This document shows, one piece after another, positions 8,182 through 31,073 of a stretch of 33,339 nt of DNA (positions are counted from its first letter, which is position 1; each line of letters starts with the position of its first letter). The notes beneath the pieces are model-generated. The model had not been told where the DNA came from. It ran no database searches and was given only the letters and a program-made list of their open reading frames with translations. Source of the stretch: Candidatus Eiseniibacteriota bacterium (GTDB taxonomy: Bacteria; Eisenbacteria; RBG-16-71-46; SZUA-252); contig VBOX01000064.1 in the NCBI GenBank assembly GCA_005893265.1, positions 1-33,339 of the forward strand, in the 5' to 3' direction. Made by a program: the position numbers and the translations under genes.

Positions 8182-8261
8182 ATGGCCGAGGTTCGGACGT
8201 CGGAGATCCTCACGGAGCGGCGTGGCCGCGTCGCGCTGATCACGCTGAACCGCCCCGAGTG
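8182..8261 (+). pseudogene. Orphaned N-terminus of the PaaG-like crotonase (out of frame)
   Basis: The ATG at 8182, 5 nt after the ALDH stop, opens MAEVRTSEILTERRGRVALITLNRPE, a textbook crotonase first beta-hairpin. After the PE the frame runs into WRCAPRCEKRS, which is not crotonase sequence. The expected continuation (EMRTPLREAFEG) is present in the next frame, only 2 nt later. Crotonases usually have about 7 residues (xxNALxx) between these points, so about 19 nt seem to be missing. This fragment belongs with the body at 8259-8966. Confidence 0.8.
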
Positions 8262-8966
8262 GAGATGCGCACCCCGCTGCGAGAAGCGTTCGAAGGGGCC
8301 GCAAGCGACTCCGGCGTCCGGGCGATCGTGGTTACGGGCGCGGGGCGCGGATTTTCCGCCGGCGGCGACATCAAGTTCATGGAATCGGTGATGGCCCGAG
8401 GGGGCCGATTCGAGGATTTCCGCCCCCTCGTCGAAGCCGGCCGGGAGATCGTGCTGGCGTTGGCGAGGATCGATAAGCCGGTGATCGCTGCGGTAAACGG
8501 CGCGGCGGCCGGAGGAGGCATGAGCTTAGCACTCGCATGCGACGTGCGCTGGGCCTCAGAAATCGCAAAGTTCGCCCAGAGTTTCGCCCGGATCGCGCTT
8601 CATCCCGATTGGGGCGCGCTCCACTCGCTCCCGCGTCTTCTCGGCACGTCGCGCGCGCTGGAGCTGATGTGGACAGGCGATCTCGTGGATGCGCAGGAAG
8701 CGCTTCGCTTGGGGATCGTCTCCCGCGTGCTCCCCGCGGAGCGACTCCTGCCCGAGGCGATTGCCTTCGCGGGCCGGCTCGCGCAGGGACCGGCCGTCGC
8801 GCTGGCCGAAATCAAGCGCTCGGTTCGGGCCTCGCTCGGCTATACTCTCGAGCAAGCGCTCGAACGGGAAATCGAAGCCCAGGAACGATGCTGGAATTCG
8901 CACGACGCCCGCGAGGGCTTCGCCGCCTTTCTCGCGAAACGCGAGCCGCGATACGAGGGCCCTTGA
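8259..8966 (+). CDS. Enoyl-CoA hydratase/isomerase, PaaG-like, body of a frame-disrupted gene
   Basis: The open body (235 aa from a GTG) covers the crotonase fold after its first hairpin: AGRGFSAGGDIKFME (first oxyanion loop), AAVNGAAAGGGMSLALACD (second oxyanion loop) and LPRLLGTSRALELMWTGDLVDAQEALRLGIV. Both hydratase glutamates are absent: S follows GGGM, and QSFARIALHPD replaces QPEI. QSF with a following PD is the PaaG/isomerase-type pattern, where an aspartate acts instead. The N-terminal strand is in another frame (8182-8261). As written, the product would lack that strand and probably misfold. It sits fourth-from-last in the catabolic operon. Confidence 0.8.
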   Translation: MEMRTPLREAFEGAASDSGVRAIVVTGAGRGFSAGGDIKFMESVMARGGRFEDFRPLVEAGREIVLALARIDKPVIAAVNGAAAGGGMSLALACDVRWASEIAKFAQSFARIALHPDWGALHSLPRLLGTSRALELMWTGDLVDAQEALRLGIVSRVLPAERLLPEAIAFAGRLAQGPAVALAEIKRSVRASLGYTLEQALEREIEAQERCWNSHDAREGFAAFLAKREPRYEGP

Positions 8967-10650: not shown

Positions 10651-10699
10651 GGCCTGCGCGGCCCGGCTCCAAGCCGTTTTATAGGTATTACGCTTTCCG

Positions 10700-10731
10700 G
10701 CGCCGGGTCCTGAAGACCCGGCGCTTTTTTT
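10700..10731 (+). terminator. Intrinsic (rho-independent) terminator
   Basis: A perfect 10-bp GC-rich stem (GCGCCGGGTC / GACCCGGCGC) with a 5-nt loop is followed directly by seven T. It lies 50 nt after the CoA-transferase B stop and closes the catabolic operon before the large repeat-protein gene. Confidence 0.92.
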
Positions 10732-10751
10732 GTCCGCCGGCCGGGTTTAGA

Positions 10752-13700
10752 ATGCAGGCATCCCCATCTGTCAGCCCGGTCCCACGTCGGAGGAAGCTTG
10801 CGCCCGCGCGTTCGGTCCTACCGAGCCTTGGTTCCCCTGCTCGGCACGCTACTGGCCCCGCAAGCGCTCGCCGTGCCGTTCGTGATCCAGACCGTCGACT
10901 CACGTGGACAGTCGAAGTAGCCGACTCCCTGGGCAACGTGGGCTACTACACGTCGCTCGCATTCGATGGAGCCGACGTCCCCCATATCAGCTACTTCGAT
11001 ATCGATCGGGCGGATCTGCGCTATGCCACGAAAGTGTCCGGCGTGTGGGTCGCCCAGGTGGTCGACTCGGTAGGAAGCGTGGGGCAGTTCAGCTCGATTG
11101 CCGTCGATGCCGATGGAAACCCGAGAATCACCTACTACGACAAAGACCACGGGGATTTGAAATATGCGGCGATGGCGGGCGGCGTGTGGACCATCGAGAC
11201 CGCGGACTCGGTCGGCGACGTGGGATTTTACACATCCCTCGCGCTCGACGCTCTCGGGGAGCCTAGCGTGAGCTACTCCGATATCAGCGGCGGCGGGCTC
11301 AAATACGCCCACAAGTCGGGAGGGGTTTGGTCCGCTGAAGTCGTGGAACCAGGCTTTCCGGTCGGGACGTATTCCTCGCTCGCGCTCGAACCGTCCGGTC
11401 GGGCCCATATCAGCTACGCAAACATCGGCCTCCAGACCCTCAGGTATGCCGTACAGGACGGCGCGGGATGGAGCCTCGAGACGGTGGACGGCAGCGGATC
11501 GGTCGGCTACTACACGTCGATTCAGCTCGCAGGAGGAACCAGCCCACGAATCAGCTACATCGACATCGCGCACCGAAAGCTCCTCTACGCCGCGCGCGGT
11601 TCTGGTTTCAACTGGGACATCGAGACCGTGGACCAGGTCACGCAGGCCCTCTTCTACACCTCTCTCAAGCTCGACAGCGAGGGCAACCCGAAGATCAGCT
11701 ACTTCGACAACGAGAAGGGCGATCTCAAATTCGCCGATTCCGCGGTTCACCTGATCGCGCCCGCGGGGGGCGAGCGTTGGCCTGCCGGGAGCGCGCAGAA
11801 GGTCGCCTGGACCGGGATCGGGCCGGTCGAGGTCCTGATCTCCCAGGACGGCGGCGCGAATTACATCGCTGCCCTGCCCTCGCCGGTAACAGACCACGAG
11901 GTCTTCATCCCGGTCCCATCCTGGACGACGACCATGGGTCGGGTGAAGGTTCGCCGCAGCTCCCCCCTTTCCTCGTCTGAATGCAGGGGACTCCTCACCA
12001 TAGCCCTCGGCCTCACCTCTCCCTGGTGGGCGAAGACCATCGACGCGGTGGGCTCCACGGGATACAACCCCTCGCTCCGCCTGACGCCGGCGGGAGCACC
12101 CCGAATCTCCTACTGGGACCTGTCGGCCCGAGCGGTCCGATTCGCGGCGCGCACCGGCGGTGTCTGGAATTTCGAAACCGTGCAGATCACCGGCGGATCG
12201 ACGACGCCCACGTCGCTCGCGATCAGCGCCATCGGGATTCCCTCGATCGCGTACTTCGACAATGCAGCCCGGCAGCTCAAGTACGCGGTCCGGGTAGGCG
12301 GGACGTGGTCGAGCGAGATCGTGCGATCGCTCACCGTCGTGGGGGATCATTGCTCCCTGGCGCTCAACTCGTTCGGGAGCCCGAGAATCGCCTACTACGA
12401 AAGCTCCCCAGCGAGACTTGTTCTCGCCGCGCAAGCCGGCGTTTCATGGGGCACGGAGGACGTGGATGCCGGAACGGACGTGGGCCTCTACAACTCCCTG
12501 GCGCTCGATAACATCGGATACCCGTACATCAGCTACTACGACGGAACCAATCATGATCTGAAATTCGCTTCCAAGGCAGGCGCGACCTGGACGGTCGAGA
12601 CGGTCGATGCGGCCGGAGACGTTGGATCCTATTCCTCGCTCGTGCTGGACGCGGGCCGAAATCCTCACGTGAGCTACGTGGACGTCGGGAACGGATATTT
12701 GAAATACGCCACCAAAGCGGGAGGTACTTGGACGATCGAGACCGTGGACTTCGGGGGGTACGTGGACGGTTCCACGTCCATCGCCCTTGACGGCGGCGGC
12801 CAGCCGCACATCGCGTATTACGACGCGGTCACGAGCCGGCTCCGGTACGCATCACGCTCGGCGCTGGGGTGGAGCACCGATAGCGTCGACCCGAGCGCGG
12901 GCGGGGGAGGACGGAACTCGCTCGCTCTGGACTCGGATGGAAATCCGCGGATCGCCTTCCAGCATATCGCCTCGAGCGATCTGCGCTACGCCTCCGCCGC
13001 GATCGAGCTCTCCGCTCCGGCGACCGCCGTGGTATGGCCGGTGGGGGCGAATCGGATCGTGCGCTGGGAAGGAACCGGATACGCGAATCTTTGGATTTCA
13101 ACCGACGGTGGAACCTCGTTTCAAATGATCGCGCCCGGGCTCAGCGGGGGCGCGTATACGCTGCTCGTGCCGCGGTCGCCATCGACGCAGTGCCGCGTAC
13201 GCCTTCAGCGTGACTTCCCATATTCCGCCTCGCTCTGCGAATCCCTATTCGAGATCAAGGCGAGCGTGGATCTCGTGGCCTTCCGCGCGGATCCCGTGCC
13301 GTACGAGGGGGGCGCGCTCGTAACTTGGGCGACCAATCCGGGCGTTGGCGATCTCGCCGGGTACCGCCTTGAGAAGGCGGTTGGCTCCGGAGCCTTCACC
13401 TCGGTCCTCGGGCTCACGAGCGAGGTGACCTACCGCGATCCCGGCGCGATCCCAGGCACGCAATACAGGCTGACCGCGGTGAACGGTCTGGGGGACGCGT
13501 TCGTTCTGGGCGTGGCCACTTTCCGGCCCCGGAAGCCGCTCGCGGCGGGACCGTTGCCCTACCGCGGCGGTGACCTCACGATTTCCTTCGCGTCGTCGGG
13601 CGGGGCCGCCGGCGCGCCCGCCCTGACCGAAGTGATTTTGTTCGACTTGCGCGGGCGGAGGGTCCGCACGATCGCGCGCGGTCCGTACCCGTCCGGCTTC

Positions 13701-13820
13701 CAGAGCGCCGCGTGGAACGGGAAGGACGAAGGAGGACGCCGGGTCGCCTCGGGCGTGTACTTCTTGAAGACCGTGAGCGGCGGCCACGAACAGTCGATCA
13801 AGATCACCGTGCTTCGATGA
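10752..13820 (+). CDS. Large secreted repeat protein (two propeller-like arrays, FlgD/T9SS-like C-terminus), N-terminus frame-disrupted
   Basis: The frame gives 1022 aa, but the first 50 residues (PSVSPVPRRRKLAPARS...) look non-coding and no ribosome site precedes the ATG. From WTVEVADSLGNVGYYTS onward there are 13 tandem repeats of about 47 residues (consensus W..E.VDS.G.VG.Y.SLALD..G.PHISYYD...LKYA.K.GG). Six lie before and seven after a spacer domain beginning APAGGERWPAGSAQKVAWTG. A second such domain (VVWPVGANRIVRWEGTG) follows, then a fibronectin-III-like stretch (PYEGGALVTWATNPG). The end is LFDLRGRRVRTIARG...WNGKDEGGRRVASGVYFLK, the FlgD-Ig/T9SS-type sorting module common in FCB and Eisenbacteria proteins. 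The protein is probably cell-surface; its ligand is unknown. A signal peptide exists in another frame (see 10798-10920). Confidence 0.85.
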   Translation: MQASPSVSPVPRRRKLAPARSVLPSLGSPARHATGPASARRAVRDPDRRLTWTVEVADSLGNVGYYTSLAFDGADVPHISYFDIDRADLRYATKVSGVWVAQVVDSVGSVGQFSSIAVDADGNPRITYYDKDHGDLKYAAMAGGVWTIETADSVGDVGFYTSLALDALGEPSVSYSDISGGGLKYAHKSGGVWSAEVVEPGFPVGTYSSLALEPSGRAHISYANIGLQTLRYAVQDGAGWSLETVDGSGSVGYYTSIQLAGGTSPRISYIDIAHRKLLYAARGSGFNWDIETVDQVTQALFYTSLKLDSEGNPKISYFDNEKGDLKFADSAVHLIAPAGGERWPAGSAQKVAWTGIGPVEVLISQDGGANYIAALPSPVTDHEVFIPVPSWTTTMGRVKVRRSSPLSSSECRGLLTIALGLTSPWWAKTIDAVGSTGYNPSLRLTPAGAPRISYWDLSARAVRFAARTGGVWNFETVQITGGSTTPTSLAISAIGIPSIAYFDNAARQLKYAVRVGGTWSSEIVRSLTVVGDHCSLALNSFGSPRIAYYESSPARLVLAAQAGVSWGTEDVDAGTDVGLYNSLALDNIGYPYISYYDGTNHDLKFASKAGATWTVETVDAAGDVGSYSSLVLDAGRNPHVSYVDVGNGYLKYATKAGGTWTIETVDFGGYVDGSTSIALDGGGQPHIAYYDAVTSRLRYASRSALGWSTDSVDPSAGGGGRNSLALDSDGNPRIAFQHIASSDLRYASAAIELSAPATAVVWPVGANRIVRWEGTGYANLWISTDGGTSFQMIAPGLSGGAYTLLVPRSPSTQCRVRLQRDFPYSASLCESLFEIKASVDLVAFRADPVPYEGGALVTWATNPGVGDLAGYRLEKAVGSGAFTSVLGLTSEVTYRDPGAIPGTQYRLTAVNGLGDAFVLGVATFRPRKPLAAGPLPYRGGDLTISFASSGGAAGAPALTEVILFDLRGRRVRTIARGPYPSGFQSAAWNGKDEGGRRVASGVYFLKTVSGGHEQSIKITVLR
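10798..10920 (+). pseudogene. Out-of-frame signal peptide belonging to the repeat protein
   Basis: A TTG at 10798 with GGAGGA just upstream opens LRPRVRSYRALVPLLGTLLA, then PQALA followed by VPFVIQTVDS: a classical signal peptide with an ALA cleavage site and the first 8-10 residues of a repeat. This frame stops at TAG 10918, while the repeat body reads in the neighbouring frame from WTVEV at 10905. The two parts clearly belong together. About 36-37 codons of one repeat, in a number of bases not divisible by three, seem to be missing between about 10899 and 10905. Confidence 0.72.
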
Positions 13821-24576: not shown

Positions 24577-25404
24577 ATGAATTTCGGGAAGGTTGCCTTC
24601 GGCACACTTCTCCTCGTTGCCGGCGTGCTCCTTCTCGCGATCCGGCTGGGCCTGGTTCCCCCCGACACACCCGGCTTTCTCCTTCGATTCTGGCCCGTCC
24701 TCCTCATCGCATTCGGCCTCGCGTTCCTGGCGGGTGCGCTCAAAAACCCATTCCTGGGCTGTCTGGCCTCGATCTTGATCGTGGGGGGCGTCGCGGTCGG
24801 TGTCTTTTGGATGATCCAGCGCCACGAAGGAGCCAAGGTCTCCCGGGGCGTGGCTTCGATCGATCTGGGAAGGGCAAAGGTGGGGTCGCTCACCGTGCGC
24901 GTCCGGACGTTCGCGGGGGGGTTCGACCTCATCGGGGCGCCGGCCAAATCGCGCACGCTCTACGTCGCTGTCCGGAACAGCGCCGGAGATTCCGCCAGCG
25001 GGTACCGATTCTTCGCTTCAGGAAAAACAGGCGCGCTCGAGTGGCCGCAGCGGCTGGACGGACTTGGCTTGGCGCCGCCCGGCGGGGGGGTGGACGTCCA
25101 GGTTCCGCTCCACCTCGAGCTTGGAGACTCGGGACGGCCCGATCAGATCCACATCGGGGGGGCCCTCTCGACAGCCCACATTCGGATCGCGCAGGATGTG
25201 CCCGTACAACTCCTCGTCCGTTCCCCGCTCACCGCGCGAACCCTTCCGTCGGATTTCGTGAAGGAGACACAGGGGCGCGGCAAAGGACTCGTGTACGCCG
25301 CTCGAGGGCGCGGGCGCGTGGTGAAGATTTTCGCGGACGGGAATCTTCTTCACGTCAAAATCGAGCGTATTCCCGGGAAGGAGATCTTGAATGGGCGCCG
25401 GTAG
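24577..25404 (+). CDS. LiaF-like membrane protein (DUF5668-type TM region)
   Basis: The protein is 275 aa. Three TM segments occupy the first 80 residues (KVAFGTLLLVAGVLLLAIRLG, FWPVLLIAFGLAFLAGAL, CLASILIVGGVAVGVFWMI). FWPVLLIAFGL is the signature of the LiaI/LiaF-like TM region. The C-terminal 190 residues are a beta-rich soluble domain (GSLTVRVRTFAGGFDLIG, VDVQVPLHLELGD, VPVQLLVRSPL), like the putative beta-helix of LiaF/DUF4097 proteins. LiaF relatives tune envelope-stress two-component systems in Firmicutes; no such kinase is nearby, so the role here is open. It overlaps the next small gene by 14 nt. Confidence 0.75.
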   Translation: MNFGKVAFGTLLLVAGVLLLAIRLGLVPPDTPGFLLRFWPVLLIAFGLAFLAGALKNPFLGCLASILIVGGVAVGVFWMIQRHEGAKVSRGVASIDLGRAKVGSLTVRVRTFAGGFDLIGAPAKSRTLYVAVRNSAGDSASGYRFFASGKTGALEWPQRLDGLGLAPPGGGVDVQVPLHLELGDSGRPDQIHIGGALSTAHIRIAQDVPVQLLVRSPLTARTLPSDFVKETQGRGKGLVYAARGRGRVVKIFADGNLLHVKIERIPGKEILNGRR

Positions 25405-29664: not shown

Positions 29665-30027
29665 ATGTCCCGACCAACCGGAATCTGGATCACGGCCCTG
29701 GTGGTGGTCTCATTGGCGATCGGGATCATCTGGACCATCCGGCTCGCTCCCCCCTCCCCCGCGCCGTGGTGGTGGGGGAAGAACCCCGACCTCCACGTCG
29801 AAGTCTGGGAGCCCGGGAAGGACATGGCCACGGTCGCGATGACGATGCCAAAGAAGACGATCGACACGATGTTCGCCCTGGGCCTACCCGCAGAGGTCAG
29901 CGCCAACGGCCACAAGATCCGCTTGAACGCAGTTCGATCCCAGATCGAGCACCTTCCGCGCCGGGAAAAGCTCAAGATCCAGGACGGAGCGGCGACCGTC
30001 TACCTATGGCTTGATGTGAAGGAGTAG
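29665..30027 (+). CDS. Hypothetical membrane-anchored small protein
   Basis: The protein is 120 aa. One N-terminal TM (WITALVVVSLAIGIIWTIRL) is followed by a small soluble domain ([53 protein letters not shown]). GAGGAGAT lies 7 nt before the ATG, a good ribosome site. I recognise no family. Its 3' end overlaps the out-of-frame tail of the topoisomerase VI A reading frame by 28 nt, but not the inferred original end of that gene (30053). Confidence 0.6.
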   Translation: MSRPTGIWITALVVVSLAIGIIWTIRLAPPSPAPWWWGKNPDLHVEVWEPGKDMATVAMTMPKKTIDTMFALGLPAEVSANGHKIRLNAVRSQIEHLPRREKLKIQDGAATVYLWLDVKE

Positions 30028-31073
30028 GCCCGCACCAAGCCGAAATCCTTTCTCAGGGCAGGAATTTCTCCGGGTGTGCGATCTTCTGGGGTAGGTACTC
30101 GTCGATAACGTAATTCAAGCCGTGCGCGGCCAGGGCCTAGGAAGAATGGGTCGTTCTTGAGCGCGTCCTTGGCCCGCTTCACGTCGACTTCCTTGAGGGG
30201 ATGGGTCGGTAGCTTGTAGTCGATGATGTCTTGGGGAGTGATTCCCAGGAAGCGAGCCTGCGGCACGCAGAAGAACTCGTTGATGTGCGCCGCGTTCCCC
30301 GAGCCAACCTTGAACGTGCGGTAGATGTTGCTGATCCCGTAGGGATCGCCGTCCACGAACACGTAGACCGGGATCTTCTTCACGTCGGCGAGACGCCGGA
30401 TGAACCGTCGGCAGGCGCGCGTCGGCACGCCCCCCATCGAAACCAGGATGCAGTTCGCCTTCTTCCAGTAGCCGTGCTTCACGAGCCGCTGGAACATTCC
30501 CGCGGTCTCGATCACCAGAATGAACTTGGCCTTGGTCTCAAACCCAAGATCTTCGACCGAGATGGGGATCGAGTAGGCGCCGGAGCCGAACTTGGTGCAG
30601 TCGATCCTGATCGCTTTACCCGTGTTGGGATCCTTGTCGATGACGATCAAGTTGCCCGCGACGTCTCCCCCCTTTTCCTCCGGAACGAACCCGAGCTGCT
30701 CGCGGTTCACCTCGAAGAGCGCCTCGACGTCGTCCATCACGGTGTCGGATTCCGTTTGCTCCAGGAAGCGCGCCTCGTCCCAATTCTTCGAGACGTAATA
30801 GGCCTCTCGCTTCGTCGCGATATCGTCGGTTTCGACGAGGGTCTTCGAGAGGGCCATCATGCGCAGCGTCTGCGCGAACGTCTTCACGGTGTTCACGGTC
30901 AAAGTCCGCTCCTTCTTGCGTCCGCGGATCTCGAAATACCCTTCCTTCTCGAGATAGCGCACGTTCGCGAGGGAGCGTATCGGGAATCGAAGGGAGGGCT
31001 TCTTCCTCTTCAAGATGGACTCCTCGACTCCCTTCGCCTCCTTCTTGATCTTAGGTACGACGCTCTCACTCAT
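30000..31073 (-). CDS. top6A: Type II DNA topoisomerase VI subunit A (Spo11-like), C-terminus frame-disrupted
   Basis: The DNA-cleaving subunit of topoisomerase VI. The winged-helix/CAP domain carries the catalytic tyrosine Y93 in KREAYYVSK. The Toprim domain has E189 ([10 protein letters not shown]) and D241/D243 (VFVDGDPYG), with [18 protein letters not shown] before it. The frame is family-like up to NDPFF at about residue 311; the last 46 residues ([16 protein letters not shown]...) are not. The true C-terminus ([20 protein letters not shown]) is readable in another frame and ends at 30053. So about 25-30 codons, with a frame change, are missing near 30140. The ATG overlaps the subunit B stop by 8 nt (co-translated). 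All catalytic residues remain. Confidence 0.9.
30053..30139 (-). pseudogene. Orphaned C-terminal end of topoisomerase VI subunit A
   Basis: In the frame next to the annotated top6A frame, this stretch encodes [20 protein letters not shown], then HPEKFLP and a stop: the typical end of a topoisomerase VI A subunit (family pattern: QALAKHGL.YVI.EYLP.KI). It is immediately preceded by TAG in its own frame at the breakpoint (TTCCTAGGCC). Confidence 0.75.

Follow-up and report, generated by a model that had tools for sequence, protein, structure and literature searches.

False pseudogenes commonly arise from genome assembly (Cooley and Wright 2024, PMC11017572). The gene described here is like the cases of that study in that it is frameshifted in one assembly, that the frame is open in relatives, and that many genes of the same assembly are affected, but whereas frameshifts and internal stops in general were at issue there, the damage seen here consists of clean losses of 65-145 nt in the assembled sequence. 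The gene lies in a window of 33,339 nt (the whole stretch of DNA analyzed, contig VBOX01000064.1 of the Candidatus Eiseniibacteriota assembly GCA_005893265.1), and the genome to which the window belongs (G000) is a fragmented draft of 2.48 Mb in 116 contigs that is 93% complete, with a contamination of 0.23%. A same-genus genome of 99% completeness (G003) served as the reference for comparison.

With respect to the encoded protein, the nearest described structures are PLL-type lectins such as PLL3 of Photorhabdus laumondii (PDB 8q81), which consist of seven four-stranded blades. The second repeat array of the window protein (12024..13010; all features lie on the forward strand unless stated otherwise) comprises seven repeats and is predicted to form a seven-bladed beta-propeller as well. 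When this array was folded alone and without an alignment, the model reached a pLDDT of 82 and a pTM of 0.85, its 28 strands corresponded to seven four-stranded blades, and the best fold matches were seven-bladed PLL-type lectins of Photorhabdus (TM-score 0.79, probability 1.00), followed by sialidase-type glycosidases. The difference from these lectins is that the identity amounts to only 14%, and that the window protein has two propellers in tandem, with a linker and with a FlgD-like domain at the C terminus. Between the arrays, the linker domain (11754..12023, delimited by the repeat boundaries in the translation) looks Ig-like by eye and has no Pfam match. The C-terminal domain (13626..13769) is FlgD_ig-like and has a weak similarity to T9SS type A tails, with both the Pfam and the NCBIfam match below cut-off in the window; the FlgD_ig match of the G003 orthologue reaches 28.7 bits at a cut-off of 27, and the type A tail profile TIGR04183 remains below its cut-off of 23 in both proteins (16.4 bits in the window, 18.0 bits in G003). 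Similarity to this C-terminal region occurs at about 35 other places in the G000 assembly, which suggests a common sorting or anchoring route for the G000 proteins that share the domain.

For the repeats themselves, searches of Pfam and NCBIfam gave weak matches only. The window protein scores 30.8 bits with BNR_4 (PF15892), just over the gathering cut-off of 27.3, but the match is partial, covering the last 41 of the 272 profile positions with no stretch that is significant alone, and the G003 orthologue stays just under the cut-off (26.5 bits). No credible sequence match was found in the PDB, as the efflux-pump matches at E 0.004 were judged to be spurious. From the structure prediction, the intact protein is best described as a pair of seven-bladed beta-propellers that would be structurally nearest to PLL-type lectins. 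It is likely a secreted, possibly surface-attached protein with a putative sugar-binding function; the fold and the signal peptide are the supported parts of this assignment.

Where does the gene begin? The repeat-bearing open frame is listed from an ATG at 10752 to 13820, and its frame differs from that of a TTG-started open reading frame at 10798-10920 (LRPRVRSYRALVPLLGTLLAPQALAVPFVIQTVDSRGQSK*), which encodes 40 aa and stops at 10918. The latter, in our view the 5' stub of the gene, begins with the TTG and a signal peptide ending in ALA, continues with VP and with FVIQTVDS, the first eight residues of repeat 1, and then runs out of frame through RGQSK into the stop. A Shine-Dalgarno-like GGAGGA (10789..10794) is found 3 nt 5' of the TTG and is identical in G003. 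The repeats resume in the neighboring frame at 10905, so that the signal peptide and the repeat body do lie in different frames, as had been noticed in the first-pass annotation. The further claim that FVIQTVDS is itself the start of a repeat holds as well: it resembles WxIETVDS, with which the downstream repeat begins, FVIQTVDSRGQ in the 40-aa frame matched positions 1-11 of the profile built from the repeats (7.6 bits, i-Evalue 2e-4), and the corresponding start region of G003, at 90% DNA identity, runs on into a complete first repeat.

The orthologue in G003 settles which start is to be preferred. It is intact (L046:1277-4405, 1042 aa), occupies the syntenic place in a region that is collinear with most of the window, shares 77% protein identity with the window protein, and has the same Shine-Dalgarno motif and TTG, with two changes within the first 34 codons that include the signal peptide. 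In this orthologue, FVTQTVDS leads without a change of frame into a first repeat that is complete, and signal peptide and repeat body are thus joined in a single frame as one gene, just as had been supposed from the window. One might argue that the frame from ATG 10752 is the real gene, since no other open frame is as long (1022 aa), and that the TTG frame with its signal peptide is a coincidence. However, G003 has no ATG at this place, its leader differs by a 1-nt indel, and the repeats are never reached in the equivalent frame; what is conserved there instead are the Shine-Dalgarno motif, the TTG and the signal peptide. A conserved ATG at 10752, which would have spoken against the split-gene reading, is therefore not what the orthologue shows, this start is refuted, and the idea that it is nonetheless the true one has next to no probability. 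The stretch 10752..10797 is rather a non-coding open frame, not conserved in G003, from which the ORF finder took its start. A second way to keep the sequence as it stands would be a programmed frameshift or a transcriptional slippage that bridges the two frames, whose overlap is indeed open in both. Such a bridge is scarcely credible: inspection of 10872-10918 revealed no slippery heptamer or homopolymer, the 36 missing codons are beyond what any shift could supply, and G003 reads through without a shift.

The repeat counts agree with the comparison of the frames. With the profile of the approximately 47-aa repeats, 6 + 7 repeats are counted in the window, the six of the first array (10905..11753, in the neighboring frame) corresponding to repeats 2-7 of the first propeller, which bears out the earlier count of six against seven. 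In G003 there are 7 + 7, 14 in total; this genome thus has both the seventh repeat and the continuous frame for which a check of orthologues had been proposed, and restoring the repeat gives the expected 7 + 7. The same 7 + 7 with the same spacing is seen in the more distant G028 (L049), a member of the same class, and several single arrays elsewhere have seven repeats. A close orthologue is known from G003 only, one of the three other same-genus genomes compared; in G001, the gene is missing at the syntenic place and a distant five-repeat relative is all that was detected, and scans of genome contigs gave no further orthologues. The six repeats that are left of the first array yielded a poor model (pLDDT 51, pTM 0.44), which, as a single comparison, would be consistent with a missing blade. 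The designation of the protein as giant was generous, as the intact orthologue has 1042 aa.

Aligned with G003, the window lacks exactly 109 nt at the junction 10900|10901, and the frame changes because 109 nt correspond to 36 codons plus one base. The earlier suggestion that one repeat of about 36 codons is partly deleted is thus correct as to the missing sequence, but the deletion is most likely one in the assembly, and the organism would still have the sequence. Outside this gap, the gene has one more gap of 3 nt, in frame, and over 971 codons the comparison with G003 gave a dN/dS of 0.26 with changes mostly at third positions. No further stop, frameshift or relaxation of selection, as looked for in a real pseudogene, was found in the rest of the gene, which appears to be under purifying selection, and with this constraint the break would have to be either very recent or not real. 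The lost propeller segment was not found elsewhere in the 2.48 Mb assembly. The breakpoints share about 6 imperfectly matching bases (CGACTC / CGACAC in G003), and as there is no more than this, the idea that the assembler had collapsed identical repeats was rejected as the mechanism.

The propeller gene is not the only gene of the window that has lost a segment relative to G003. At 25105..25106, 108 nt are missing in frame from the gene of a LiaF-like membrane protein (Pfam), and at 30138..30139, on the reverse strand, 65 nt are missing out of frame from the gene of DNA topoisomerase VI subunit A (30000-31073; Pfam). Up to the gap, the topoisomerase gene shares 98% identity with that of G003, and beyond the gap 96%. 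Eight other genomes that were searched have the gene intact, and no second copy was found in the G000 assembly.

To put these losses into perspective, about 1.0 Mb from each of the two genomes were aligned, of which 279 kb were collinear; G003 was the single comparison genome, and gap lengths are given after realignment of some of the gaps listed by BLAST. In the collinear part, indels of at most 19 nt are balanced between the two genomes, 411 vs 406 (343 vs 341 for 1-3 nt, 68 vs 65 for 4-19 nt). Clean gaps of at least 60 nt are one-sided: 15 are found on the G000 side (65-145 nt) vs a single one on the G003 side (84 nt), which gives p = 5e-4 in a two-sided binomial test, and clean gaps of 40-59 nt or 146-800 nt were not found in either direction in the 279 kb. 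On average, the G000 assembly thus has such a loss about every 19 kb. The junctions of the lost segments are blunt or nearly so, and 8 of the 15 losses are not multiples of three. A drop-out of high-GC sequence or hairpins is unsupported, as the lost segments have 56-73% GC and folding energies like random segments and are in both respects nothing special.

The losses do not spare conserved genes. In the G000 assembly they hit Lgt, a FliA-type sigma factor, RecF, a UvrA-type protein, one of two GroELs and topoisomerase VI A, and a STAS protein and an NtrC-type regulator are also among the genes that are cut; the topoisomerase and the LiaF-like protein were assigned by Pfam, and the other names were read from the translations. 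The sigma factor has lost 41 aa from its conserved region-2 stretch, and the GroEL and topoisomerase VI A proteins are 94-98% identical to their counterparts on either side of the gap. All four damaged genes that were tested in this respect (topoisomerase VI A, Lgt, sigma factor and GroEL) are intact in those relatives from which complete copies were obtained: six relatives have a complete Lgt and six a complete sigma factor, both of which are damaged only in G000, with end fragments of Lgt in two incomplete genomes, and G001 and G003 have an undamaged version of the GroEL in question. As G000 carries a second, more distant GroEL copy, the loss of this GroEL need not be lethal.

Taken at face value, the sequence shows a loss, and it may be asked whether the strain really lost 109 nt between the first and the second repeat in recent times, leaving a pseudogene with a 40-aa stub and a body without signal peptide. 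Repeat arrays are prone to deletions, and the short imperfect match at the breakpoints is compatible with such an event, but a slip between the matching hexamers would remove 108 nt in frame, and 109 nt are missing. Moreover, the rest of the gene is constrained, and clean losses of the same size class are also seen in conserved genes that are neither related nor repetitive, both elsewhere in the assembly and on the same contig. We therefore regard a real deletion as unlikely. If the losses were real throughout, the lineage would have acquired many clean deletions of 65-145 nt in conserved genes by an unusual mutational process or rapid genome decay. Such a lineage is still less probable than a single real deletion. 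Two observations speak against the assembly as the cause, namely that 7 of the 15 losses keep the frame, slightly above the one third expected by chance, and that there is one 84-nt loss on the G003 side. It is the narrow size class, the one-sidedness, the indifference to frame and gene, and the damage to conserved genes that argue for the assembly rather than the organism, and with at least 15 clean losses of 65-145 nt in 279 kb, housekeeping genes included, the loss in the propeller gene is probably the assembly's as well. While the 109-nt difference, the intact orthologue and the one-sided excess are directly observed, we infer the assembly cause from them. In our judgment it is very likely that the TTG at 10798 is the start of the gene, that the product is secreted and has two propellers and a FlgD-like domain, that the gene is intact in the organism, and that its 109-nt loss stems from the assembly.

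Judged from the sequences compared here, the 109 nt were most likely lost during draft assembly. The assembler would have skipped a short stretch and then joined its flanks bluntly, for example by wrongly linking read pairs or contigs over a stretch that lacked coverage. As the size range of the losses is narrow, something fixed by the read library is suggested, and this library may have set the range.

The surroundings of the gene differ between the two genomes. A terminator-like hairpin with a T run (10699..10732) lies just 5' of the propeller gene and is conserved in G003, though the preceding gene differs there: upstream of the hairpin, G003 has about 1.2 kb extra, with a signal-peptide-bearing protein of the outer-membrane type. 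Further upstream, about 600 nt of the window (8193-8798) stand against 73 nt in G003. This segment contains most of an enoyl-CoA hydratase-like open reading frame (8259-8966), in which the Pfam profile is matched only from position 23, and the 5' end of this reading frame may be missing too.

What does this mean for the organism? About 15 losses per 279 kb extrapolate to roughly 130 damaged places over the 2.5 Mb draft, and frameshifts, missing domains or “lost” functions that are inferred from the G000 assembly are unreliable for this reason. Such damage is not revealed by a completeness of 93% and a contamination of 0.23%, and this kind of assembly error can be tested for cheaply by looking for a one-sided excess of mid-sized gaps in an alignment with a sister genome. 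As a biological feature, the frame break is most likely not real, and the propeller gene is probably intact in the organism. The case is thus mainly a caution on draft genomes, and the propeller protein itself is unremarkable among proteins of this known fold.
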